Positions 778-57,388 of a DNA stretch of 64,000 nucleotides are shown here, piece by piece; the stretch's first letter is position 1, and the number at the start of each line of letters is the position of its first letter. The stretch covers positions 1-64,000 of the forward strand of contig NZ_FPAT01000003.1 of NCBI RefSeq assembly GCF_900116555.1, in the 5' to 3' direction. This DNA comes from Actinopolyspora lacussalsi subsp. righensis (GTDB lineage Bacteria > Actinomycetota > Actinomycetes > Mycobacteriales > Pseudonocardiaceae). The notes beneath the pieces were generated by a model. The model worked only from the letters and a program-made list of their open reading frames with translations. It searched no databases and had not been told where the DNA came from. A program made the position numbers and the translations under genes.

Positions 778-3700
778 TCATTCGGTGTTCGGCTCGGGTC
801 GCAGCCACAACTTGACGGTGCTCGTCTCCGAAGCACCGATCGCCCGCATCAACTGCTCCGGCGCCACCGGCTCGCTCCTGCCCACCGGCACGATGTCGTA
901 TCCCCAGGACGTGAACTCGTCCAACACACCGCTCGGTTCGTCGCCCAGTGCCCGTATTCCCGAGGGAGTGAACGAGCACACCACGGAAGGGCGGTGCTGC
1001 CGCAACAGTCCGTCCAGCCCGCGCAGGATCCGATGCACCCTGGATCCGACATCCACGTGCACCACGGAGAGGTTGCGCTCACCGATCCCGTGCTCGCTGC
1101 TGAGCTCCCCATCGAGACGCGCCCCCCGCAACCGGACGACTGAAGCACGCGCGTCCGGAACGGCCTGCCCACCCGCCCCCTCGGAAGCGGTCACTTCCAC
1201 TCCTCCGGTCCCCGCGGGCAACCCGAGCAGTTCACCGTCGTCGTCCCAGGCCGCGCCGTCCAATACGGTGAGCCGTTCCCTGAGCCGTTCGGTGACGTTG
1301 ACCTCCGCGTTGTGCTCCAGCAGTTCACGGGCTACCGCATCCGGCTCCACCGCGATCACACGCCCGGTGTGGTTGAGCCTGCCGAGCACGCGGACCGCCT
1401 GGTAACCGACGTAGGCACCCACGTCGAGGAAGACCCCACCCGGCTCCAGCAGGGAGTCGATCAGGGCGGAGACCTCGGCGTCCCAGCGGTGGTGCGAGGA
1501 CAGCCACGGCAGCATCACGGTGTCATCGGCGGGCAACCGCAGCAGTCCCGCCTCGCACACCACGGGAGTGCCGGGCAGGTGTGCCGTGTCGCTGTTGCGT
1601 TCGTGCTCCCGCAGCACGATGCGACGCAACGCGTCGGTACCGCGCAGCGCGTTGTCGATGTCCAGGGCGCTGCGGCGCAACCCGTTCTCCAGCTGTTCCT
1701 GCTGGCTCTTCTCCGACTCCTCGATCCGCTGTTCCAGCCGGTCGACCCGGTCCAGTGTCCGCTCCACCGCCCCGGTGAGGCTGTCGATGCGCTCGGCGAG
1801 CTCGGAGAGCTGTCGCTGACCGAGCGAATCGCCGGTTTCCTCCAGCCCGCGCAGCCTGCGGTCGTGCTCGGCCAGTTCGGTTCGGGCCTGCACCGTGCTG
1901 TCGTCGGCTCCCGCCACTCGGGAACCGAGCTGCTCCTGTCGCTGGGCGAGTTGCGTGAGCTCGGCGCGTACCGCGTTGATGTCGAGGTCGTCGGCGCGTT
2001 CCTGCTGCCTGCGAAGCAGTTCGGAGGAGGTTTTCTCCACCCCGTCCAGCAATGAGCGAATGATGTCGCGAATGTGCTCGTCGTAGTGGCCCAACGCCTT
2101 GAGCACGGCCTTGCGCAACGCGGGTGTGACGGCGTTGCGCCCACCCATCCCCACTTCCGGGGGGCGGTGCAGCGCGTGACGGGCGATCAGCAGCGGACGC
2201 AACGGGTCCTCGTCGGGGGCGTGCTGGTCGCGTGCCCACTTGGCCCGCCAGTTGCGGTAGGCCGCCTCCACGCGCTCCCGCAGCTGTTCGCCCGCCCTGC
2301 CCGGGGCGAGCTGTCGGGACAACCGTTCCCCCGCCCCGACGGCGAACCGCTGGAGTTCACTGGGATCGTCGGCGGCCGAGGTCAGCGCGGCAGCGGCGGA
2401 CTCCACGTCGGGTTCGCCACTGCCGTGGCATCCCACCAGCACCGCGCCGGACGAGCCGAACAGCTCACCGACCGCCCCCTGTTCCACCGTGATCACCGGA
2501 ATCCCGCACCCCGCGGCGTGCAGCATTCGCAACGCGTAGCGGTCGCCGCCGACACCGCCGTCCGCCCGGTGCAGGGAGACGGCGCAGTCGGCGACCGACA
2601 GGACCGTCTCCTCGGCGTCGTCTCGCTCCAGCAGCAGGATCCGGTGGTCGGTGGTGGTGGCCAACCGCAGGCGTTCCGCCGCCTCGGGATGCTCCGCGGC
2701 GCCGCTGACCGCCACGACCAGCCGCACGTCGGTGCGGCTGCCGAACGCGGCGCCGAAAGCGGTCACCAGGCCGAGCACGTTCGCGCGGTGCTCCTCGGCG
2801 TGGTCGGCGAAGGCTGCGAAGACGAATTCCTCGTCGATCCCGAGGCGCTCCCGCGCGGCCTGCCGAATGGCGGGCTCCGGTGGCTCCCGCTCCGGGAACG
2901 GCAGCGCGAGCACGCGGGCTTGCACTCCCACGTGGCGCGCCGCGTGCCTGCCTGCCTGCGAGAGCGCCCACAGTTCGGTGGGTTCGCCGGAAGCGGGAGT
3001 AGTGTCGGCCGGGTCGGCCCCACCGTCCGGCCGGATGTCGATGAGGTGGTGCCCGGCGGGTACGGGCACCGAGGGATCGCAGCGCAGCACGACGGGATAG
3101 CGCGCGTCGTCCGAGTTCGGGATGCCGGAGGTGCGCACGGCGAGCCGGACCAGTTCGGCGAGCCGTCCGGTACCGACGACCGCGACCCCCAGTTGGTCGG
3201 TCATCTCGGAGTCGTCGGTTCCCCTGCTCCGGGCCAACCGGGCGGGCACGCGCCCACTGGCCACCCCGACCCCGGCGCACCACTCGCGGAACGCGGCCGC
3301 GTCGTCGGTCAACGGGAGCGGATAGTCGCGCCGCAGCACCTGGTCGTCCTGCCACAGGGCGAAGTCCCACCGGGAGCACCCCGCAGCGCGCTGTTGCTCG
3401 TCGGCGGGGCTGCCCGCCCACTCCAGGAACTCGGCGAACGGGTCACGTTCCGGCCCGGCGGGTTCGAAGGGACTGGGCACGACGGGATCGCCCGAGGACT
3501 CGGCGGACAGCCACTGGGCCCGGTACGCGGCGCGCAGCGAAGTCGGCAGCACCGTACCATCGGGCAGTTCGTCGAACGGCGAGGCGCGTTCGCTCGTCAT
3601 TCCCCGCGAGACGAGCGCGTTTCGGTAACCGGCACACAACTGCGCCAGCGGCGGTGATTCGGAGAGCAGCACCCGGGGGCGATCGGAGTACTCCGCGGAG

Positions 3701-4581
3701 AACAACCAGGGGCGCTGCGGTTCGAACCCCTCGAAGTGGACGGTACGCAGCGGATAACCATCCACTGTGTATGCACCGTCGGAGGTTTCGAGCTCGCGCT
3801 GCCCGGCGTTGTACACCGACAGCCCCACACCCGGGTCGCGCAGCACCCGGTGTTCGACCATGGCGGGCAGCCCCTCGAAGAACTCGGCCGCGGCGTCCGG
3901 TTCGGCACGCACCCGCTGTGCCCACTCGTCGAGCACCCGTTCCGCGCCGTGAGTTACCGCGAGCAGGTTCGGATCGAACGAGCCCGCCCGAGCCAGATCC
4001 CTCGACCCGGGACGCAGCCCGTCGGCGGGCAACGGGCGAATCACCCGGGGAGCGAGGCCCAACGGCGCTTCGTCGTCGAGTGCGGCGAGCGGTTCCCCGA
4101 ACGAGCCGAACACCCGGACCACCGGCGACAAATACAGCACGAGTGGTTCGGAGCGCAGTAGACGGGCGAGCAGGCCGGGGAGCACGACCGAGTTGAGCGG
4201 TTCGCCGCCGCAGGCCGTGGCCAGCCGGGAGAACTCGACATCGTCGATACCGATGTCGGCGGGGGTGCTGACCTCCTCCCGCAGGTCGGCTTCGAGGTCG
4301 GTGCCGAAGTCCAGCAGCAGGATCGTGAACCGCCCGCCGGGGTGGCACCGCAGGAACGAGTCACGCAGCACCCGCGCCCCGGCGAGCTGACCGTGCCGGG
4401 CGACCGTGCAGCCGTGCGGGGCGGGGAACTCGTTCCCGTCACCGGCGGGCCGAGTCGATTCGTCCTCCGGCAGTTCGGCGGGCCAGGCAGGCTCATCGAC
4501 GAACTCGTCCGCCGAATCGAGCCCTTCCCGATCGGCGGACGGCCACTGGTTCGATTCGGAGTGGTCCAGGGGATCGTTCAC
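778..4581 (-). CDS. Giant glycosyltransferase / FkbM methyltransferase fusion
   Basis: This protein of about 1267 residues has several regions. An N-terminal glycosyltransferase-like region spans about residues 60-360 (HPGGRFTILLLDFGTD, then LVLYLSPVVRVFG). A GT-B-like, GT4-type region spans about 455-800, with VAVVGTGRLAEL and a C-terminal lobe giving YALRMLHAAGCGIPVI. A heptad-rich coiled coil lies at about 834-980. The C-terminus is an FkbM-type SAM methyltransferase (GGVFLDVGAYVGYQAV at about 1044). It probably builds and methylates a surface glycan, which is inference. The chosen start is the GTG at 4581, just after the upstream glnA2 stop region. The frame stays open to 4947, but that part lies entirely antiparallel-free inside glnA2 on the same strand and would overlap it by over 300 nt. 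The coiled coil suggests oligomerisation. Confidence 0.8.
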   Translation of the reverse strand: MNDPLDHSESNQWPSADREGLDSADEFVDEPAWPAELPEDESTRPAGDGNEFPAPHGCTVARHGQLAGARVLRDSFLRCHPGGRFTILLLDFGTDLEADLREEVSTPADIGIDDVEFSRLATACGGEPLNSVVLPGLLARLLRSEPLVLYLSPVVRVFGSFGEPLAALDDEAPLGLAPRVIRPLPADGLRPGSRDLARAGSFDPNLLAVTHGAERVLDEWAQRVRAEPDAAAEFFEGLPAMVEHRVLRDPGVGLSVYNAGQRELETSDGAYTVDGYPLRTVHFEGFEPQRPWLFSAEYSDRPRVLLSESPPLAQLCAGYRNALVSRGMTSERASPFDELPDGTVLPTSLRAAYRAQWLSAESSGDPVVPSPFEPAGPERDPFAEFLEWAGSPADEQQRAAGCSRWDFALWQDDQVLRRDYPLPLTDDAAAFREWCAGVGVASGRVPARLARSRGTDDSEMTDQLGVAVVGTGRLAELVRLAVRTSGIPNSDDARYPVVLRCDPSVPVPAGHHLIDIRPDGGADPADTTPASGEPTELWALSQAGRHAARHVGVQARVLALPFPEREPPEPAIRQAARERLGIDEEFVFAAFADHAEEHRANVLGLVTAFGAAFGSRTDVRLVVAVSGAAEHPEAAERLRLATTTDHRILLLERDDAEETVLSVADCAVSLHRADGGVGGDRYALRMLHAAGCGIPVITVEQGAVGELFGSSGAVLVGCHGSGEPDVESAAAALTSAADDPSELQRFAVGAGERLSRQLAPGRAGEQLRERVEAAYRNWRAKWARDQHAPDEDPLRPLLIARHALHRPPEVGMGGRNAVTPALRKAVLKALGHYDEHIRDIIRSLLDGVEKTSSELLRRQQERADDLDINAVRAELTQLAQRQEQLGSRVAGADDSTVQARTELAEHDRRLRGLEETGDSLGQRQLSELAERIDSLTGAVERTLDRVDRLEQRIEESEKSQQEQLENGLRRSALDIDNALRGTDALRRIVLREHERNSDTAHLPGTPVVCEAGLLRLPADDTVMLPWLSSHHRWDAEVSALIDSLLEPGGVFLDVGAYVGYQAVRVLGRLNHTGRVIAVEPDAVARELLEHNAEVNVTERLRERLTVLDGAAWDDDGELLGLPAGTGGVEVTASEGAGGQAVPDARASVVRLRGARLDGELSSEHGIGERNLSVVHVDVGSRVHRILRGLDGLLRQHRPSVVCSFTPSGIRALGDEPSGVLDEFTSWGYDIVPVGRSEPVAPEQLMRAIGASETSTVKLWLRPEPNTE

Positions 4582-39771: not shown

Positions 39772-40713
39772 TCACCTCCGTCTGCCGACGACCAGCGCCG
39801 TCACCGCGGCCAGCGCACCCCCGACGGTGCCGATCAGCCTGGACAGCTCGACACTCCGCGTGACGTCGCCACCGTCGGCGGTACGCCCCTCCCCCAGCAC
39901 GGGGCGGGTCTCGGCGGCGTGCTCGTAGTCGATCCGGCCTCCCAGCCTGATGCGCAGCGCACCGGCGAACGCCGCCTCGACCTGGCCCGCGTTGGGACTG
40001 GGGTGCGCCGAGGCGTCCCGTCGCCTGATCCGTCCGCTCTCGCGTGCCGAGCCACCGACCACCGGTGCGCACACCACGGTCAGCATCGCGGTGGTGCGTG
40101 CCGGGAGCAGGTTCAGCAGATCGTCCAGCCGCGCCGCGCCCCAGCCGAACGCGCGGTACCTGCTGCTCCGGTTCCCGATCATGGCGTCGAGCGTGTTGGC
40201 CGCCCGGTAACCGACGAGACCGGGAACTCCCGCGAGGGCTCCCCAGAACAGGGGGGCGATGACCGCGTCCGAGGTGTTCTCCGCCACCGATTCGACCGTG
40301 GCACGCGCCAGTCCCTGGTTGTCGAGGTCATCGGCGCGACGACCGCACAGTCCGCGCAGCCTGGAACGCGCCGCCGCCAACTCACCGGAGTCGAGATGAG
40401 CGGCCATCGCACTGCCCTCCCGCGCCAGGGAGGCGCCGCCGAGCACGCTCCAGGTGGTCAGGGCGGTCAACGTCGCTTCGGCGACCGGCGAACGCCGGAC
40501 CATCCGCTGGGAAATCACACCGAGTCCCACGGTCGCGCCGACCAACCCGGCGGTGTGCAGCACGCCGGCCGAACGGCTGTCGCGGTAGGTGACCGACTCG
40601 GCCCGTTGGGCGGTCCTGCCGAACGCCGCCACCGGATGTCCGCGTTTCGGATCCCCCAGAACCGCGTCAGCGGCTACGCCGAGTAGTAAACCGACCGCCC
40701 GCCCCGAGCTCAC
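39772..40713 (-). CDS. cobD: CobD/CbiB adenosylcobinamide-phosphate synthase
   Basis: The 313-residue membrane enzyme attaches aminopropanol (or its phosphate) to cobyric acid. Family signatures are ADAVLGDPKRGHPVAAFG near the start, ESVAENTSDAVIAPLFWG and LVGYRAANTLDAMIG. The GTG at 40713 follows GAGGAGG by seven bases. It matches Rv2236c. It converges with the SURF1 gene across 24 bp and is divergent from the Wadjet operon. Confidence 0.93.
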   Translation of the reverse strand: MSSGRAVGLLLGVAADAVLGDPKRGHPVAAFGRTAQRAESVTYRDSRSAGVLHTAGLVGATVGLGVISQRMVRRSPVAEATLTALTTWSVLGGASLAREGSAMAAHLDSGELAAARSRLRGLCGRRADDLDNQGLARATVESVAENTSDAVIAPLFWGALAGVPGLVGYRAANTLDAMIGNRSSRYRAFGWGAARLDDLLNLLPARTTAMLTVVCAPVVGGSARESGRIRRRDASAHPSPNAGQVEAAFAGALRIRLGGRIDYEHAAETRPVLGEGRTADGGDVTRSVELSRLIGTVGGALAAVTALVVGRRR

Positions 40714-40846
40714 GGCAATTCCTCCTCGCAAGGTCGACCACGTCCGTGGCGCACGCTACCTTTCCGTGACGACGCGAGGCACACCGAGGCCACGAGTAAC
40801 GGAGTGTTTTCGGTGGCGTCCGCGACCAGGGTTATCGTGGCTGACC

Positions 40847-42643
40847 GTGACCGCCGATCACGAAGCCGTCGAGCCGCGCTCCGGGGCGATACCGAACGCC
40901 GTGCCGCCCCGCGGTGCCCCGGTCGCACGTCCACCGGGACCGGAGCGGATCACCGGGACCGGAGCGGACGGCGCGGACCTCGCGAGAACCGCCTCCCCGA
41001 ACAGCGGGACAGCCGCCGCGGGCGACGAGGTCTCGGACAGCCCGACCGCCGAACGGGACCTTCCGGCGGGCGCGGAGGTCGAGTCCGGTGAACGACGCCT
41101 GCTGCTCTACCGTCATCTGCAGGTGAGCGGTCACCGCACCTACCTGACGATCATGCGGCTGTTCACCTCCACGCTGCTCGCGGACCTCTCCGCGGCGGAG
41201 GTCGCGGGAACGCTGGCGGTGGCCGAGCGCGAGGGCAGGATCGCCGAGGGCGAGTCCGAGCTGTCGACCGTGGTCGAACGGCTGCGCAAGCTCCGCGAGT
41301 GGGGCAACCTGACCCACGGCAGACGCGAGACGACCGCGTCCAGCATCGCGGAGTTCCAGCACGGCAGTGTCCGCTTCCAGGTGAGCAAGCTGGGTGTGCG
41401 GGTGCAGCGGGACGTGGACGCGCTGTTGCGGGTTCCCGAGGGCGCCCGGGAAGTCTCCAGGGAGTTGCTGCCTGCCATCGAACGCGGGCTGAGCGGGATC
41501 GTGGAGCTGCTTCCCGAGGAGACGAGCGCCGCAGCCCTGTCGGAGCAGACCAGGGAACGCATCTCGGAACAGGTCACCACGGTCTTCCTGCAGCACTCCG
41601 AGCTCGCCGACACCGTTCGCGATTTCTACGCCTACCTCGGTCAGGTGGTCACCAGGCATCACCTGAACGCGGGCGAGATATCCGGTTTCCGGAATCTGCT
41701 GGTGGAGTACATCCAGTCGGTGGTCGAGGACGTGATCCGCCACACCGAGCCGATCGCGGCGTCGTTGAGCGTGCTGGCGCGGCGTCGGGACCAACTGCTG
41801 GCGGCGCTGGGCCCCGTGGAGGACCTCGGTGACGAGGTGGAGCGGGCACGCGGCAGGACCGGGGCCGACTGGCAGGAACTCACCGACTGGTTCCTGGACT
41901 CGCCGGGCAGGCCGAGCCAGGTCTCGGCCCTGCGCGAGGCCACCGCACGCGCGATCGGCTCGTTGCTGGCCAGCGTCAAGCACGCCACCTCGGGCGGTGG
42001 GCCGGTACCGGGGCGTCGGAGCGATCTGCTCCACCTGGCGCGTTGGTTCGACGACTCGGACCAGGCCGGGGCGCATCGGCTCTACGCCGCCGCTTTCGGG
42101 CTGTACTCCTCCCGGTGTTTTCAGCCCGCCCCGCCGCACGACGGGGACGAGCACGCCACCAGTTGGCTGGCGGGAAACCGCGTCGAGATCCCGGTCAACG
42201 TCCGCAACCGCGCCGATCGGAGCGGCAGCGGCGGCACCTCGCGGGTACTGCACGACCCAATGACCGAGCGGCAACTGCTGGACGAACGCCGCGCCGAGCA
42301 GCAGCGACGTGCCGCTGCCGTGGCGGAGCTGGCCGCCGCGTCGGAGAACCCGGCGGGGAGCAGATTCTCCGCCGACGCGCTGGAAGTGCTGTGCGAACTG
42401 CTGACGCTGGCGATGGCCGATCGGGAGGATCCGGCCGAAACCCGCACGGCGCTGGAACCGGTTCACCGACTGCGGCTGCGGATCCGACACAGCCCGGAGG
42501 GACCGACCACGATCTCCAGCGTGCGCGGCGAGCTGACCCTGCGGGACACGGCGGTGGAGCTGGACGTCTCCGAGATGTCCGGGAGGTTCACCACGACCGG
42601 CGCCGCGAACCACGAGAACGTCACCGACGGAGCGATCCGATGA
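40847..42643 (+). CDS. jetA: Wadjet type III component JetA (DUF2397, TIGR02677)
   Basis: The product of about 598 residues is the kleisin-like subunit of a type III Wadjet anti-plasmid complex. The domain begins near residue 75 (RRLLLYRHLQVSGHRTYLTIM) and continues through VVERLRKLREWGNLT and VRDFYAYLGQVVTRHHLN. The N-terminal 75 residues are low-complexity (Gly/Ala/Pro/Arg/Glu) and lengthen it over typical members. No ribosome binding site precedes the GTG at 40847, but TATCGT (40833-40838) is a possible -10 box for a leaderless message. Its stop overlaps the jetB ATG. It works with JetB, C and D to recognise and cut circular plasmid DNA. Confidence 0.87.
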   Translation: MTADHEAVEPRSGAIPNAVPPRGAPVARPPGPERITGTGADGADLARTASPNSGTAAAGDEVSDSPTAERDLPAGAEVESGERRLLLYRHLQVSGHRTYLTIMRLFTSTLLADLSAAEVAGTLAVAEREGRIAEGESELSTVVERLRKLREWGNLTHGRRETTASSIAEFQHGSVRFQVSKLGVRVQRDVDALLRVPEGAREVSRELLPAIERGLSGIVELLPEETSAAALSEQTRERISEQVTTVFLQHSELADTVRDFYAYLGQVVTRHHLNAGEISGFRNLLVEYIQSVVEDVIRHTEPIAASLSVLARRRDQLLAALGPVEDLGDEVERARGRTGADWQELTDWFLDSPGRPSQVSALREATARAIGSLLASVKHATSGGGPVPGRRSDLLHLARWFDDSDQAGAHRLYAAAFGLYSSRCFQPAPPHDGDEHATSWLAGNRVEIPVNVRNRADRSGSGGTSRVLHDPMTERQLLDERRAEQQRRAAAVAELAAASENPAGSRFSADALEVLCELLTLAMADREDPAETRTALEPVHRLRLRIRHSPEGPTTISSVRGELTLRDTAVELDVSEMSGRFTTTGAANHENVTDGAIR

Positions 42644-43896
42644 GAACACGGGAGACCTCGGTTCCGGGGTTCGACCGACTCGGCGATATAGACGCGGCCA
42701 ACGTGGTGCGCTGTGCCAGGACGCTGCTGCGCCGCCCGTTACTGCACGCGGCGAGCCAGGACGGCGACCTGCTGGGCATGATCTACCGCCACCGCGAGGT
42801 GCTGCGGGAGCTGTTCGCCACGCTGCTCGGCTACCGGCTGGTGATCCGCAGGCGGTACGCGCGGTTGTACAAGTCCGGCCCCGGCCGGGACGCCACCAGG
42901 GCGGTTCCCACCCTCACCCCGCGTGGCTACGCCTACGTGGCGCTGACGCTGGCCGCTCTGACCGGGTGCGGAAAGCAGGTACTGCTGTCACGGCTGATCG
43001 ACGACGTTCGTGGAGCCGCCGTGGAAGCGGGGATCACGATCGACGACGAGCCCGGTGAACGCAGGGCGCTGGCCACCGCACTGCGCCATCTGGTCGTCCT
43101 CGGAGTGCTCACCGAGACCGAGGGCACGGTCGGCCCGCTCGCCGGCGACGCCACGGCGGAAGCACTGATCACCGTCGACACCGATCTGCTCGGTCAACTC
43201 GTGACCGGACCGCTGTCGGAGGCCGACGGGCCGCAACGGCTGGTGGAACTGGCGTCGGGCGATGCGGGCGTGCACGCGGCCACTGTGGAACAGGCCGTGC
43301 GGCGCAGGCTGGTGGAGGATCCGGTGGTGCACTACCGGGACCTCCCGGAGTCGCAGGCGAACTGGTTGCGCAGGCACCGTGCCGGTGAGACCCGGCTGCT
43401 GGAGCGGTACTTCGGCATCGTCGCCGAGTCACGTTCGGAGGGCATCGCCACGACCGACCCGCAGGACTACCTCAACGACACCTCGTTCCCCGGTAGCTCG
43501 ACGGTGGCGCGCGTGGCCCAGCTCGCGATTCCGCGGCTGCTGGACGGCTCGACGGCCAGGGAGGGCGACCACCGGCACCCGGTGACGCGGGAGGATTTCG
43601 GCAGGGTCTGCGAGGAGCTGCTGGAGAGGTATCCGGCCGCCTGGTCCCGCCGGGCGATCGAAGACCCGGAATCGCTGGTCACGATGGTGGTGGACCTGCT
43701 GCGGCGGGTGGGCGTGCTGATCCCGCACGAATCCGGGGATCCGGAGTGGTGGCTGCTCAGCCCCAGCGCGCACCGCTGGCTACCGATCCCCGACGGTGAA
43801 CCGGCTCCGGCGGAGCGGGAAACCGAACCCCCCGCCGAAACAGCGGTGCCCGACCTAGCGTTGTTCGACTATCCGGAAGGAGAACCCGCCCGGTGA
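42640..43896 (+). CDS. jetB: Wadjet type III component JetB (DUF2398, TIGR02678)
   Basis: The 418-residue protein belongs to the TIGR02678/DUF2398 family. Recognisable stretches are RRPLLHAASQDGDLLGMIYRH near the start, LVIRRRYARLYKSGPGRDA, and RRHRAGETRLLERYFG mid-protein. In structures of related systems JetB is a KITE-type winged-helix subunit bridging JetA and JetC. The ATG at 42640 overlaps the jetA stop by four bases, so it is translationally coupled. Confidence 0.88.
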   Translation: MRTRETSVPGFDRLGDIDAANVVRCARTLLRRPLLHAASQDGDLLGMIYRHREVLRELFATLLGYRLVIRRRYARLYKSGPGRDATRAVPTLTPRGYAYVALTLAALTGCGKQVLLSRLIDDVRGAAVEAGITIDDEPGERRALATALRHLVVLGVLTETEGTVGPLAGDATAEALITVDTDLLGQLVTGPLSEADGPQRLVELASGDAGVHAATVEQAVRRRLVEDPVVHYRDLPESQANWLRRHRAGETRLLERYFGIVAESRSEGIATTDPQDYLNDTSFPGSSTVARVAQLAIPRLLDGSTAREGDHRHPVTREDFGRVCEELLERYPAAWSRRAIEDPESLVTMVVDLLRRVGVLIPHESGDPEWWLLSPSAHRWLPIPDGEPAPAERETEPPAETAVPDLALFDYPEGEPAR

Positions 43897-46800
43897 GCAC
43901 GGAAGCGGTGACGCAGCCCGACGGTGCGGCAGCACAGCACCTTTCGACCGCTTCCGGCGGAGAACCCCCCGGAGGGGAGGGGATCGGCAGCCGGTGGCGC
44001 CTGCGGCGGGGCGGCGTGGTCAACATCTGGCAGTACGCCAACCAGACGTTCGACCTCAGCGGTGGACGCGCGATCTTCCAGGGGACCAACGGCTCCGGGA
44101 AGTCCCGGACCCTGGAGTTGCTGCTGCCGCTGTGCCTGGACGGTGATCTGCGGCAGATCGGGTCCAAGGGATTCGACACGGTCAGCATGAAGCGGCTGAT
44201 GCTCGACGAGCGCGAGAGCGGTGGCAACCGGCTCGGCTACGCCTGGGTGGAACTGTCCAGGATCTCGCACGACGGCTCCGAACGGTTTCTGACCTGTGGG
44301 ATCGGCGTGAAGGCCACCGCGACCTCGAACCAGATCAGCGATTCGTGGCGGTTCGTCACCGAACGCCGGGTCGAGCACGACCTGCGGCTGATCGGTCCGG
44401 GAGAGGTGCCGCTGAGCCAGCCCCAGCTGCGCGAGGAGCTGGGCGCGGAGTGCCTGCACGACGAGCAGTCCTTCCGGGCCAGAATCGCGGGCACGGTTTA
44501 CGGCATCACCCCGGAGCGCTACGGCGACCTACTGCACCTGCAACGCACGCTGCGCAACCCCGACGTCGGACTGCGGGTGCAGGAGGGACAGCTCGAACAG
44601 ATCCTGTCCGACGCGCTGCCGCCGCTGGACTCGACGCTGATACAGCGGCTGGCGACCTCGTTCGAGGACCTGGAGTCCATCCGCGAGAACATCCTGCGGC
44701 TGACCACGGCCGACAGCGCGCTGAGCTCGTTCCTGACCACCTATGCGGACTACGCGCTGACAGTGCTGCGCACACGTGCGAAGGCGTCCCGCGAGGCGGC
44801 CAGGCAGCACGACTCGTTGCACACCACGATCGACGAGCTGGCCGAGCGGTACCGATCCGAACTGGACAAACGTTCCGCGAGCGAGGAACGGGTCGGCGAG
44901 CTGGAGCGGCGTGACCGCGAGCTGGACTCCTCGCTGGGGGCGCTGCGACAGAGCCCGGCCTACACCGAGCTGCAGAACCTGCACGACCGCAGGGCACTGG
45001 TGGACAACGAGCGCTCCGCGGCGGAGGGCGCGCTGCGCACTGCCGAACGGCACCGTGACCAGGAACAGCGCTCGGTCTCCACGGTGCTGGGCATGCTGGA
45101 ACGACTGAGCTCGGACATCGACGCGGCCGAACAGCACCGCCAACAGGCCGATGCCGGGCTCAGGGCGTCGGGACTGGACGGTTCGCTGGCACCGGCGATA
45201 CCGACGATGCCTCCCACCGAGGCCACGGTCCGCTGGGAGGTCGTGCGCGGCACGGCCGACAGCGGTTCCGAATGGCTCGACGTGGCACGGCACATCCCCC
45301 CACAACCCGACACCGAGGAACTCGCCTCGCGGCTGCGTGAGGTCGACGAGCACGCCGCCGGGGCGGTCGAGGCCGCGCGGGAACGCGGTGCGTTGACCCT
45401 GGCACTGCGGCAGCAGGCCGAGGAGGCGGATCGGCAGCGGGCCGAGGTCTCCGACGCCGAACGGCAGGCCGAAGCGGCGAAGGTGACCGCCACGGAAGCC
45501 GCAGCACGGCGCAACCAGGTACGGCAGGACCTGTACGACACCGCCGTGGCATGGCTGGACCGGGTTCGACGCTGGTGGCACGACGGCGCGCTGGCGAGCG
45601 AGGCAGCGGGAACACCCCCGCCCCCGGAATCACCGACCCCGGAACAGCTGACAGCCGACCGCTTCGCGGCGCGCGGCGGTCGGGAGCGGATGCGCGAGTG
45701 GGCGCAGCCGGTGCTGCATCGCGTGCGGATGCGCGTCACCGAGCTGGACCGGAAGCTGGCGGAGACCCGTTCGGCGGTGTCGGAACGCGACACCGAACTC
45801 GCGGAACTGCGTTCCGGCGGCGAGCGGGTACCGGCCTCGCCCTCCTGGGCCACCGCGGAACGGGACCCGGGCTCTGGCGAGGCGTTCTACCGACTGGTGG
45901 ACTTCGCGGAATCGCTTTCCGAGTCCGAACGCGCCGCGCTGGAAGGTGCGCTGGAGGCCTGCGGACTGCTCAACGCGTGGGTGACGACCGACGGCACCGC
46001 CACCGACGTCGCCACCTCCGACGTGGTGGCGACCCCGGGCGAGCGGCTCACCGGGAGCTCCCTGTCCGAACTGCTGGTGCCCGCCGCCGAACCGGACTGC
46101 CCCGTCCCCGAGGCGCGGATCGAGGCGTTGCTGTGTTCGGTCGCCGTGGACGACACGGCGGAAACGGCGGTGCTCGCCGACGGCCGCTGGCGCAGCGGCG
46201 TGCTCTCCGGCGCGTGGCGCAAGGAGATGGCCGAGTACGTGGGCGCTGGGGCTCGCGGTGCCGCTCGGCAGCAGCGCATCACCGAGCTGGAGGCCGAGCT
46301 GACGGAACTTCGGGCGGAGCTCGGTGAGCTGGAGCGGCAGCGGGCCGACACGGGACGACGTGCCGAGTCGCTGGAGCGCGAGCTGGAGTCCTACCCGGAC
46401 GACGACGAACTGTTCAGCGCGCACGCGAGGCTGAGCAGCGCCGTCGACGACGCGGACGAGGCACAGCGCACCGCGAACCGGTTGCGGCAGGCCCACGAAC
46501 AGGCGGAGGCGCGCTGGCAGGCGATGCGTTCCGAGCTGTCCCGCGCGGCGGGCGGAGCGGGGTTGAAACCGGAGACCGAAGCGCTGCAGGAGGCCAACCG
46601 GTCCGCCACGGATGCCCGGCGGGCGTTGGAAACCCTGCGCGAGGCGATCGGATCCCGATGCCTCGGCACGTTGGAGCAGCTGGGCACCACGGTGCTGCAC
46701 CACGACGCGACGGTGGCCGACCGGATGGCGGCGGAGTCGCTGGCCGAGCAACACTGCGCGAACCACGCCGAGCAGGCCGCCGCGCTGGCGGAGTTGACCG

Positions 46801-48104
46801 CCTCCGTCGACGACGAGGGCAGGCGGGTCGCCGAACAGGTCGCGGAGCTGACGCGGGAGCAGGAACAGCTCCGAGACCTGCTCCCCGAGGTCAGGGAGCG
46901 GGTCTCGGCCGCCCGGGAGGAGGCCGGGAAGCTCGACGAGAAGCTGACGGCGGCTCGTGCCCGGTTGTCCGAGCGCGAGTCGGAGAGCAGCGAAGCGGCG
47001 AGCGCGCTGCGTCGGGCGATGGAACTACCGGGGCTGTGGGCAGCGGCCGTGGCCGCCACCGAGGGGGAACTGCCCGAAGAACCCGGTGGGGTCGAGGAGT
47101 CGGTGACCGCGCTGCTGTCCACCGCGGTGGCCCGGTCCTCACCGGGTAGCACGGCGGCCAAGGCGGTGCACGACAAACTGCACCCGCTGAAGCAGTCGCT
47201 GAGCGGTCACTTCGACGTCACCACGGCCGAGGAGGACGAGGTGCTGACCGTGACCGTGATCGGCGAGGAGGGTCCGCTGCCCGTCGCCGAGGCGGCCCTG
47301 CGGATAAACCGGCGGTTGGCCGAGCAGCGCGAGTACCTCAACGAACAGTACCGGTCGATCTTCGCCGACTACCTCATCCGCGATCTCGCGGAACGGCTGC
47401 GCGACCAGATCGCGGTGGCTCGGGATCTGTGCGACCGGATGAATCGGGTGCTGGAGGGGGCACGCTCCAGCCAGGGGGTACACGTGCAGCTGGACTGGCA
47501 GCCCGCCACCGCGCTGAGCGAGGACATGCGGCAGGCCATCGAGGTGGTCCGGAAACCGTTCGCGGAACGCGGGGAGCAGGAGGACGCCCTGCTGCGACGG
47601 GTCTTCACCGATCTGATCGAGTCACAGCGGGAGAGCGTTTCCGGCGGTTACGGTGAGATCCTGTCCAAGGCGCTGGACTACCGGGACTGGTACGAGTTCA
47701 CGGTGCGGGTCCGCGACTCCGGTCCCGACGACCAGCGGCGGGTGCGGCGACTGCGGCAGTTGTCCTCGGGGGAGACCCGGCTGGTGTCCTACGTGACCCT
47801 GTTCGCGGCGGCCGCTTCGTTCTACGACGCCATCGAGTCCGCGGCCCAGCAGCACGACCCGTTGCGGCTCGTACTGCTGGACGAGGCGTTCGAACGCCTG
47901 GACGACCCGACGGTGGCACGTATGCTGGGGTTGCTGGTGGATCTGGACATGGACTGGATGATCACCTGGCCGAGCGGTTGGGGAGTTTCCCCCAAGATCC
48001 CGAAGATGCACATCTACGACGTGCTGCGACCGCGCAGCGGGCACGGAATCGCCTGCACCCACACCGTGTGGAACGGTCGCGGTCTGGAGCGGACGGAACA
48101 TTGA
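43893..48104 (+). CDS. jetC: Wadjet type III component JetC, SMC-like ATPase (TIGR02680)
   Basis: The 1403-residue protein is an SMC/MukB-like motor. Walker A is GTNGSGKSRT at about residue 64; the ABC signature is QLSSGETRLVSY near 1290 and Walker B is LVLLDEAFERLDD at about 1326. Between them lie long coiled-coil arms, at about 280-560 and 780-1130, around a hinge region. It dimerises to extrude DNA loops. The C-terminal WMITWPSGWGVSPKI segment is conserved in the family. The GTG at 43893 overlaps the jetB stop (GTGA). The length is typical. Confidence 0.93.
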   Translation: MSTEAVTQPDGAAAQHLSTASGGEPPGGEGIGSRWRLRRGGVVNIWQYANQTFDLSGGRAIFQGTNGSGKSRTLELLLPLCLDGDLRQIGSKGFDTVSMKRLMLDERESGGNRLGYAWVELSRISHDGSERFLTCGIGVKATATSNQISDSWRFVTERRVEHDLRLIGPGEVPLSQPQLREELGAECLHDEQSFRARIAGTVYGITPERYGDLLHLQRTLRNPDVGLRVQEGQLEQILSDALPPLDSTLIQRLATSFEDLESIRENILRLTTADSALSSFLTTYADYALTVLRTRAKASREAARQHDSLHTTIDELAERYRSELDKRSASEERVGELERRDRELDSSLGALRQSPAYTELQNLHDRRALVDNERSAAEGALRTAERHRDQEQRSVSTVLGMLERLSSDIDAAEQHRQQADAGLRASGLDGSLAPAIPTMPPTEATVRWEVVRGTADSGSEWLDVARHIPPQPDTEELASRLREVDEHAAGAVEAARERGALTLALRQQAEEADRQRAEVSDAERQAEAAKVTATEAAARRNQVRQDLYDTAVAWLDRVRRWWHDGALASEAAGTPPPPESPTPEQLTADRFAARGGRERMREWAQPVLHRVRMRVTELDRKLAETRSAVSERDTELAELRSGGERVPASPSWATAERDPGSGEAFYRLVDFAESLSESERAALEGALEACGLLNAWVTTDGTATDVATSDVVATPGERLTGSSLSELLVPAAEPDCPVPEARIEALLCSVAVDDTAETAVLADGRWRSGVLSGAWRKEMAEYVGAGARGAARQQRITELEAELTELRAELGELERQRADTGRRAESLERELESYPDDDELFSAHARLSSAVDDADEAQRTANRLRQAHEQAEARWQAMRSELSRAAGGAGLKPETEALQEANRSATDARRALETLREAIGSRCLGTLEQLGTTVLHHDATVADRMAAESLAEQHCANHAEQAAALAELTASVDDEGRRVAEQVAELTREQEQLRDLLPEVRERVSAAREEAGKLDEKLTAARARLSERESESSEAASALRRAMELPGLWAAAVAATEGELPEEPGGVEESVTALLSTAVARSSPGSTAAKAVHDKLHPLKQSLSGHFDVTTAEEDEVLTVTVIGEEGPLPVAEAALRINRRLAEQREYLNEQYRSIFADYLIRDLAERLRDQIAVARDLCDRMNRVLEGARSSQGVHVQLDWQPATALSEDMRQAIEVVRKPFAERGEQEDALLRRVFTDLIESQRESVSGGYGEILSKALDYRDWYEFTVRVRDSGPDDQRRVRRLRQLSSGETRLVSYVTLFAAAASFYDAIESAAQQHDPLRLVLLDEAFERLDDPTVARMLGLLVDLDMDWMITWPSGWGVSPKIPKMHIYDVLRPRSGHGIACTHTVWNGRGLERTEH

Positions 48105-49384
48105 ACGATCCCGAGAGCATTCGTGCCGTCTGGGACCTGCCGGAGCTGCGGGGCCTCTGGGAACGCGCCAGGCAGGCGCTGGAGGCCGCCGACCGCCCCC
48201 CGACGTTCCGGCTGGAGCTGCCGGACGAACGGACCCGCCAGAAGGTGGGCGAGGTCTACGGCCGCCCCATGTGGGGGCAGGGAACCAGGATCAATGTGTC
48301 CAAGCTGGACGAATCGCTGCGTGCGGGCGCACACGGCGTCGATCTGGAACGGCTGCTGGAGATCCTGCACGAACGGCCGGTCACCCGGCAGGAGTCGGGT
48401 TCGCGACGCCGAGAGCATGAACAGGACCGGACCGTCGGGGTGCTGAACGCGGCGCTGGCCGAACACGGCCTGGCGGAACAGCCGTGGGCCGCGGCGTGGA
48501 CCGACTGGGTAAGGCAGTACGGACGGGTGGCCGACTCGGACCTGGACGCGACCGCGGAACGGGCCGCCGCGGTACTGGCACGTCTCGTGCTGGACCCGGA
48601 TCGACAGCCACGGGTCCGGTGGTCGCGCACCGAGCTGGCAGCGCGGTGCGCCGGGAACGAGTACGAGCTGGACAACGGAACCACGTTGAGCCGAGTGGTG
48701 CTGCGTGCCGCCTCGATGGCGCACGGCACGGACTCACCGGGCGGTGAACGCGAACGCCGGACCCTGTGGGAACGCTGCGGAGTCACACCGGACGGAATCT
48801 CGGCCACGGTGCCCTGCTGGGCGCTGCCACTTCCGGGAGAGGACGCGTGGTCGGGCACCGTGCGGGAACGCACCGAGCTGGGACTGCCGACGCACCTGAC
48901 ACTCCTCGATCTCCGGGCCGCCCCGGAACCCCTGGTCGAACCGGGCACGGTGATCGCGGTGTGCCAGCACACGCGGACGCTGGAAGCCGCCGTGACCGCC
49001 GGTGTCCGGCACCCGGTGGTGTGCCTCTCCGGACGTCCCGGAACCGTGGCGCTGGAACTGCTCGACCGGCTGCGGGCCGACGGAGCGATCCTGCGATTGC
49101 ACTGCGACTTCGACTGGACGGGGCTCTCCGTCGCAGGGGCGCTGTACGAGCGGCCGGGATTCGTGCCGTGGCGGATGTCGGCGGCGGACTACCGCGAGAC
49201 GGTGAACCGGGCCGCCGCCCGGCGCACCGACCTGCGGATCCTGGACGAGAACCCCACCGAGGCACCGTGGGACCCCGAGCTCGCCGAAGTCATGTCCAGC
49301 GCGGGGCGTGCCGTCGAGGAGGAGATAGTGCTCGACGATCTGCTGCACGACCTGCGGAACGGGCTCACCGGCCCGGTGGCCTGA
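48101..49384 (+). CDS. jetD: Wadjet type III nuclease JetD (DUF2399, TIGR02679)
   Basis: The 427-residue protein carries a Toprim-like nuclease domain in its last 130 residues: PVVCLSGRPGTVAL and the acidic DFDWTGLSVAG at about residue 335. JetD cleaves the plasmid after JetABC has finished loop extrusion. The N-terminal half (LPELRGLWERARQALE, then VYGRPMWGQGTRINV) fits TIGR02679. It starts with TTG 48101, overlapping the jetC stop (TTGA). A TTG start is unusual but the overlap makes it convincing. Three 15-bp direct repeats surround its stop. Confidence 0.9.
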   Translation: MNDPESIRAVWDLPELRGLWERARQALEAADRPPTFRLELPDERTRQKVGEVYGRPMWGQGTRINVSKLDESLRAGAHGVDLERLLEILHERPVTRQESGSRRREHEQDRTVGVLNAALAEHGLAEQPWAAAWTDWVRQYGRVADSDLDATAERAAAVLARLVLDPDRQPRVRWSRTELAARCAGNEYELDNGTTLSRVVLRAASMAHGTDSPGGERERRTLWERCGVTPDGISATVPCWALPLPGEDAWSGTVRERTELGLPTHLTLLDLRAAPEPLVEPGTVIAVCQHTRTLEAAVTAGVRHPVVCLSGRPGTVALELLDRLRADGAILRLHCDFDWTGLSVAGALYERPGFVPWRMSAADYRETVNRAAARRTDLRILDENPTEAPWDPELAEVMSSAGRAVEEEIVLDDLLHDLRNGLTGPVA

Positions 49385-56923: not shown

Positions 56924-57388
56924 TCACGCGGATACTTCCGCGAGCACCTTTCGCCAGGCGTCCTGGTCACGAGGCTCACCGGGCTGGTTCATCTCGGCGA
57001 ATCGAACCTTGCCCTCGGTGTCGATGAGGAAGGTTCCCCGATTGGCCATGCCCGCCTGCTCGTTGAAGACTCCGTAAGCCTTGGCGACTTCACCGTGCGG
57101 CCAGAAGTCGGACAGCAACGGGAAGGTGTAGCCCTCCTGCTCCGCCCACGCCTTCAGCGCGAACGAGGAGTCGACCGAGACTCCGAGCACCTGGACACGG
57201 TCGTTCTGGAAGTCACCGAGGTCGTCGCGGACCTGGCAGAGCTCGCCCTGGCAGACACCGCTGAAGGCGAACGGGTAGAAGACCAGCAACACGTTCTTGT
57301 CGCCGCGGAAATCCGACAGCGACACCTTCTCCTTGTTGTAATCCGGCAACGTGAAGTCCGGCGCTGTGGCACCGACCTCGAGCGTCAT
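56924..57388 (-). CDS. ahpE: AhpE-type peroxiredoxin
   Basis: The 154-residue thioredoxin-fold peroxidase has the peroxidatic Cys46 in PFAFSGVCQGELC and the AhpE hallmark SDFWPHGEVAKAYGVFNEQAG. The M. tuberculosis AhpE is a 1-Cys enzyme. Here a second cysteine, Cys51, lies five residues later (C-x4-C), the spacing seen in BCP/PrxQ peroxiredoxins, so a local disulfide is possible. It lies beside the DUF3052 and aceE genes as in M. tuberculosis (Rv2238c). Confidence 0.95.
   Translation of the reverse strand: MTLEVGATAPDFTLPDYNKEKVSLSDFRGDKNVLLVFYPFAFSGVCQGELCQVRDDLGDFQNDRVQVLGVSVDSSFALKAWAEQEGYTFPLLSDFWPHGEVAKAYGVFNEQAGMANRGTFLIDTEGKVRFAEMNQPGEPRDQDAWRKVLAEVSA

Follow-up and report, generated by a model that had tools for sequence, protein, structure and literature searches.

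A cobD-linked type II Wadjet operon in Actinopolyspora with an altered JetD active site, from a lineage with repeated loss of JetD

Gene content and type of the operon

We analyzed a four-gene operon of the Wadjet family, jetABCD, on the forward strand of a contig from Actinopolyspora lacussalsi subsp. righensis; "the window" denotes the whole stretch under study, the first 64,000 nucleotides of contig NZ_FPAT01000003.1. The operon starts with jetA (40847–42643; GTG start, 598 amino acids), which encodes a kleisin-like protein with DUF2397, followed by jetB (42640–43896; ATG start, 418 amino acids) for a KITE-like protein with DUF2398, jetC (43893–48104; GTG start, 1403 amino acids) for an SMC ATPase, and jetD (48101–49384; TTG start, 427 amino acids) for a CAP and Toprim nuclease with DUF3323 and DUF2399. 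Neighboring genes overlap by four bases (ATGA at jetA/jetB, GTGA at jetB/jetC, TTGA at jetC/jetD), which makes translational coupling of the four plausible; a promoter scan found none, the sigma-70 consensus being a poor guide in high-GC actinomycetes. Divergently from jetA lies cobD (39772–40731, reverse strand; PF03186, 289.7 bits), which marks the ancestral place of the operon. In JetC, Walker A (GTNGSGKS, 44082–44105), the signature (LSSGE, 47760–47774) and Walker B (VLLDEAFERL, 47871–47900) are intact. In JetD, residue alignment places Gln289 (codon CAG, 48965–48967) at the position of the Toprim glutamate, while the DxD motif (D336, D338; 49106–49114) is kept, preceded by Cys335 where glycine is usual. 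The first-pass annotation had given the genes, their coordinates and overlaps and the intact JetC motifs as we find them; its statement that JetD keeps its acidic motif holds for the DxD and fails for the glutamate.

That the four genes form a complete Wadjet-family operon, as first proposed, is borne out by NCBIfam, Pfam and PADLOC profiles, but the proposed type III label had to be abandoned. The top PADLOC models are JetA2 (PDLC00541, 584 bits), JetB2 (PDLC00543, 373.5 bits), JetC2 (PDLC00553, 1235.7 bits) and JetD2 (PDLC00557, 340 bits), and we take the digit 2 to mean type II; no type III model is among the matches listed for the four proteins, JetC additionally matching JetC1 and other SMC-like models more weakly. 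These assignments do not support a type III system. The four NCBIfam families named in the first-pass annotation all match over most of the profile, though only two reach the curated cut-off: TIGR02678 (JetB, 132.7 bits; cut-off 124.65) and TIGR02680 (JetC, 726.2 bits; cut-off 462.85) exceed it, and TIGR02677 (JetA, 133 bits; cut-off 165.85) and TIGR02679 (JetD, 180.5 bits; cut-off 196) fall below. Pfam DUF2397, DUF2398, SbcC_Walker_B, DUF3323 and DUF2399 all pass. JetA and JetC of the window also match the chains of the same names in PDB entry 9qe0 (E 3e-11 and 3.4e-66), which we take to be the type II complex of N. vireti (nvJET); in this PDB profile search JetB had no match and JetD chance matches only. 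As the AlphaFold model of JetD is modest (predicted local distance difference test, pLDDT, 64.1; predicted template-modeling score, pTM, 0.40), its fold matches serve as support only. With four adjacent genes of the right families and all JetC motifs present, the window operon is a type II Wadjet by descent; the E…DxD triad of JetD is incomplete, and we find no support for counting the operon among active nuclease systems.

Residence at cobD and loss of the nuclease

To place the operon in its lineage, we compared 121 stretches, namely the window and 120 regions from a search group that we call the family, which includes Kibdelosporangium, Actinosynnema, Actinoalloteichus and Halosaccharopolyspora (NCBI places A. 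alba in Actinopolysporaceae). Forty regions were chosen by JetC match and 80 by CobD match, the latter from a 150-genome search (CobD in 150/150, one CobD match per genome) and mostly high-scoring, with 20 mostly lower-scoring; a JetC was counted as cobD-linked at an identity of at least 45% to the window JetC. CobD is present in 116 of the 121 stretches, and 80 of these 116 also hold JetC, JetA and JetB, a fraction that is not a prevalence estimate because the regions were picked by JetC or mostly for a high CobD score. Among the 80 regions chosen by CobD, 44 hold JetABC. The remaining 36 of the 116 cobD loci are without JetABC, eight of them being short stretches (5.4–10 kb) at contig ends. 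Named members with the cobD-linked operon include representatives of all four genera listed above, and the closest named relatives are Actinopolyspora species, with a JetB 98% identical in A. alba. Within the genus, JetC exceeds the TIGR02680 cut-off in 10/10 genomes, and one copy adjoins cobD in all ten, window included. A cobD-linked operon is present as well in a record labelled Rhodococcus rhodnii NRRL B-16535, a strain label that may be wrong.

The history of the operon follows that of its neighbor. On a CobD tree of the 116 loci, presence of JetABC takes five changes compared with a shuffled mean of 31, and JetC and CobD path lengths over 78 loci (two with partial JetC, L161 and L100, left out) correlate with a Mantel r of 0.82 and a Spearman coefficient of 0.77, values reached in 0 of 2000 permutations. 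In an order-level search (44 of 200 genomes matched, 25 of them outside the family), JetB identity reaches no more than 42% outside the family, and a class-level search (39 of 197 matched) gives at most 48% among the 38 other genomes with a match; a scan of viral contigs found no relative. Because the linkage to cobD spans much of the family and the tree resembles that of CobD, we regard the operon as a long-standing resident that has been passed on vertically and lost in places, and on the same two observations we reject a recent horizontal insertion at cobD. Of the earlier alternative, a gain at this spot or losses elsewhere, the data favor the second half.

JetD was scored with an iterated JetD hidden Markov model (HMM) and residue alignment in 79 cobD-linked operons, that is, the 80 minus L161, whose stretch ends inside jetC. 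A full-length JetD with the Glu-Asp-Asp triad (E-D-D) occurs in 22. Four carry glutamine (window, G001, G005 and G007), and in 12 the position is taken by R, H, M, S or A, with the second aspartate lost too in six, so that the glutamate is missing from 16 JetD proteins in all. A further seven operons retain N-terminal pieces without the Toprim active site, and in 34 no JetD was found. A lineage-specific JetD HMM recovered nothing in these 34 loci, at least 4.4 kb beyond jetC being covered in those checked; the spacing between jetC and jetD is looser in some relatives (about 0.3 kb in L065, about 1.4 kb in L086). Thirty-three of the 34 genomes were included in a 150-genome DUF2399 search, and 15 of the 33 are outside its 85 matching genomes. 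As a yardstick we used 37 family loci (34 distinct) whose operon is not linked to cobD, mostly best-scoring family matches and hence a sample biased to well-kept copies: in all 30 rows (27 distinct) with JetD in the stretch the triad is E-D-D. For five of the other seven, DUF2399 matches some 3 kb upstream of jetC; the genomes of the last two lay outside the DUF2399 search. The reverse of the usual loss is seen in L097 (G044), where an orphan E-D-D JetD (2528–3775 of the locus, with cobD set to the reverse strand) stands beside cobD without JetABC.

In a JetD tree, the 46 cobD-linked proteins form one clade (support 97), within which the 19 glutamate-less or truncated ones form one sub-clade (support 97). 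A JetC tree rooted on 11 outgroups sets 26 loci with E or Q (98) apart from 52 lost loci (69), with a long-branch warning; under midpoint rooting four JetD-less loci fall on the intact side. The pattern calls for no fewer than two inactivations, an early one within the family and E289Q in Actinopolyspora, and perhaps for three. Glutamate is found at position 289 in the other 22 of the 26 members of the intact cobD-linked clade, as it is throughout the yardstick rows. Since the glutamine occurs in four genomes, we reject a sequencing error; it also appears in records named A. alba and A. mzabensis, but these are probably the G001 and G007 assemblies and so add no evidence. Supply of JetD by a second copy in the window genome is likewise unsupported, the second DUF2399 match there reaching 25.5 bits over only 40 residues and JetD_C (PF09983), the type I nuclease domain, having no match. 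That genome holds a single JetC by TIGR02680 search, besides an ordinary SMC (983.9 bits).

A shared replacement effector after JetC was considered and set aside: the one forward-strand family of open reading frames (ORFs) found to recur there, in 11 of the 52 loci, consists of zinc carboxypeptidases (Peptidase_M14). It looks like a neighbor because it also follows the remaining JetD in two loci. Its gene recurs after jetC or jetD where JetD is lost or glutamate-less (for example in L070, L080 and L078). Other large downstream ORF clusters had mixed strands and were not used.

Unlike the nuclease, the motor is kept. Walker A is present in 80/80 cobD-linked JetC proteins, the signature in 79/80 (the 80th, L161, being cut by a contig end) and Walker B in 78/80, the exceptions being L161 for the same reason and L109. 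Across 11 pairs whose JetD is absent, truncated or glutamate-less, the ratio of nonsynonymous to synonymous substitution rates (dN/dS) is 0.03–0.18 for JetA, 0.03–0.35 for JetB and 0.07–0.26 for JetC; JetABC stays under purifying selection in the cobD-linked lineage. Possible motor decay is visible in two loci: JetC of L109 (G065) is without its 3' end and with it Walker B, and JetC of L100 (G132) matches in two pieces. One residue in the N-terminal part of JetB (window 42640–42720) is F in 26/26 loci with E or Q and L in 44/52 others; as a JetD-docking motif it was not used, since the contrast comes down to a single independent pair and the motif is absent from JetB of operons that are not linked to cobD.

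Two further features concern the locus itself. JetA has an N-terminal extension of about 65–75 residues ahead of its domain (window 40847–41075), which is common to the five named Actinopolyspora records and largely to Halosaccharopolyspora as well; for the remaining 7 of 13 named loci, JetA matches only from residue 69–84 onward. Downstream of jetD come a GH3 glycosidase gene and then other genes up to an AhpC/TSA-family gene (56924–57388, reverse strand) about 7.5 kb away, which fits ahpE.

Possible present role of the complex

With a probability of roughly 60%, we read these data as a lineage of type II Wadjet operons, inherited vertically, that is losing its nuclease and keeping its SMC motor, with the window at an early step. 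Excerpts of two studies describe Wadjet as a dimeric JetABC motor that extrudes the plasmid, with JetD being activated once extrusion is complete (PMC12647877, PMC10586767). As the motor is kept and the cutter is disabled or gone, the likeliest outcome would therefore be a complex that extrudes DNA and does not cut it. In such a course of events, the metal-binding glutamate of JetD would have disappeared on a deep branch of the family, most of whose members then eroded or deleted the glutamate-less protein; independently, E289 would have changed to glutamine before the window species and its nearest relatives diverged. JetABC would most likely still load on DNA and extrude loops with ATP, and the JetD of the window, kept folded, may still dock and cut poorly or not at all. 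The complex could act on DNA without cutting by compacting, sensing or silencing circular DNA, or by organizing the chromosome as MukBEF and MksBEF do, so that the JetABC motor may now serve another purpose. E289Q would be expected to stop cutting by JetD: in the part of the MksG study available, nuclease activity suffered drastically from the E236A and D279A substitutions (PMC10123090), and two partly accessible Spo11 papers give the equivalent glutamate as essential in yeast and report DNA left uncut by SPO11 E224A (PMC11746154, PMC11922745).

Several points weigh against this reading. JetD of the glutamine clade retains the DxD and the C-terminal EE, is full length and evolves with a dN/dS of 0.10–0.21 (five pairs), like JetA–C and similar to the 0.11–0.25 (four pairs) of its glutamate-bearing relatives; with this length and low dN/dS it is not drifting and still has a selected role. 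On the branch to this clade JetD has 17 fixed changes, among them E289Q and G335C in the active site and Y333L beside it, versus five on the sister branch, compared with 35 versus 30 in the other four genes, an excess that makes faster change of JetD only suggestive (Fisher p 0.078; 0.124 versus JetA–C alone). A published E-to-Q test at the JetD glutamate position was not found in the literature searched, and at another glutamate (E342) of topoisomerase VI such an exchange raises cleavage, according to an excerpted report (PMC13040014). The N. vireti complex nvJET, a Wadjet-II, cuts naked circular DNA in the section of the paper at hand (PMC12647877). The locus counts, moreover, are not independent, because they go back to about two, perhaps three, loss events. 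Finally, G007 and G005, the latter of the same species as the window, each hold a second TIGR02680 operon elsewhere (L004, L005) with an E-D-D JetD.

The constraint on JetD after its loss of glutamate is what would be expected of a non-cutting partner that bends or clamps DNA, holds JetABC on fully extruded circles and silences or marks plasmids. This is a special case of the nuclease-loss reading and not exclusive with it, and we consider it rather unlikely. The 12 other glutamate-less JetD proteins that persist in other genera (ten in one piece, two matched in two) agree with it, and in a partially available study a JetD mutant without catalytic activity is seen, together with JetABC, on plasmid DNA that is bent (PMC13040014); such a role cannot be general, however, because JetABC persists in 34 of the 79 loci with no JetD found beside it.

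More doubtful still is a working anti-plasmid type II Wadjet, in which JetABC extrudes the plasmid completely and JetD cuts it, Gln289 being tolerated while the DxD and other acidic residues hold the metal. The full operon, the intact JetC motifs, the retained DxD and the purifying selection on JetD fit this picture, as do the cleavage by nvJET and a DNA-bound Spo11 structure whose visible metal is held by two aspartates and not by the glutamate, as given in an excerpt (PMC11746154). It has to contend with the glutamate found in all 30 yardstick rows and in 22 of the 26 members of its own clade, with the abolished or strongly lowered cleavage after alanine replacement in SPO11 and MksG, both cited above from partial texts, and with the wider lineage, which lost the nuclease. 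A decaying relic that lost first the nuclease and later the motor would account for the damaged JetC of L109 and L100 and for the 36 of 116 cobD loci without JetABC, but is made improbable by the low dN/dS of JetA–C in pairs without a glutamate-bearing JetD and by JetC motifs kept in 78–80 of 80 proteins over a divergence to about 50% identity.

Beyond the loss of the nuclease from a resident motor, we tentatively suggest, at somewhat less than even odds, that the lineage records a natural and traceable conversion, in which a plasmid-cutting defense complex became an SMC complex that has no nuclease and a resident role in the cell. As part of this suggestion, its intermediates would be alive today: the full triad, the exchange of Glu for Gln as in the window, loss of both Glu and Asp, the N-terminal remnant, and JetABC alone.

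Relation to known systems

That Wadjet is common in a genus of Actinobacteria has precedent: a survey of the phylum, as far as its text was available, lists Wadjet in 42% of genomes and, in 73% of Rhodococcus genomes, Wadjet together with restriction–modification and one of two other systems (PMC10482375). Among the matches listed from the PubMed Central open subset, we found no description of a cobD-linked Wadjet or of a natural loss of the JetD glutamate; the graded loss of the nuclease, as it appears from the genes, is the part for which no published description was found. In cultivable actinomycetes, the lineage provides JetABC complexes that have lost the nuclease to different degrees and are open to testing. 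It also carries a warning, as annotation by gene content would call such loci, the window included, complete defense systems.

Among characterized systems, the type II Wadjet of N. vireti is the nearest: it shares the four genes, and Jet2 models are the best for all four window proteins. The window lineage differs from it in being linked to cobD and vertically inherited, in the exchange of the JetD glutamate for glutamine and in its many relatives without JetD. Type I Wadjet, or MksBEFG, of C. glutamicum, E. coli GF4-3 and P. aeruginosa is built from protein families other than those of the window; the activity of its nuclease MksG depends, according to the excerpted study, on the Glu and Asp that bind metal (PMC10123090). 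The nuclease-free MksBEF and MukBEF complexes resemble the JetABC-only loci of the lineage, which likewise comprise an SMC protein, a kleisin and a KITE protein and no nuclease. The window itself stands apart from them, as its proteins are of type II and a full-length JetD is still encoded, and the likeness is one of gene make-up.

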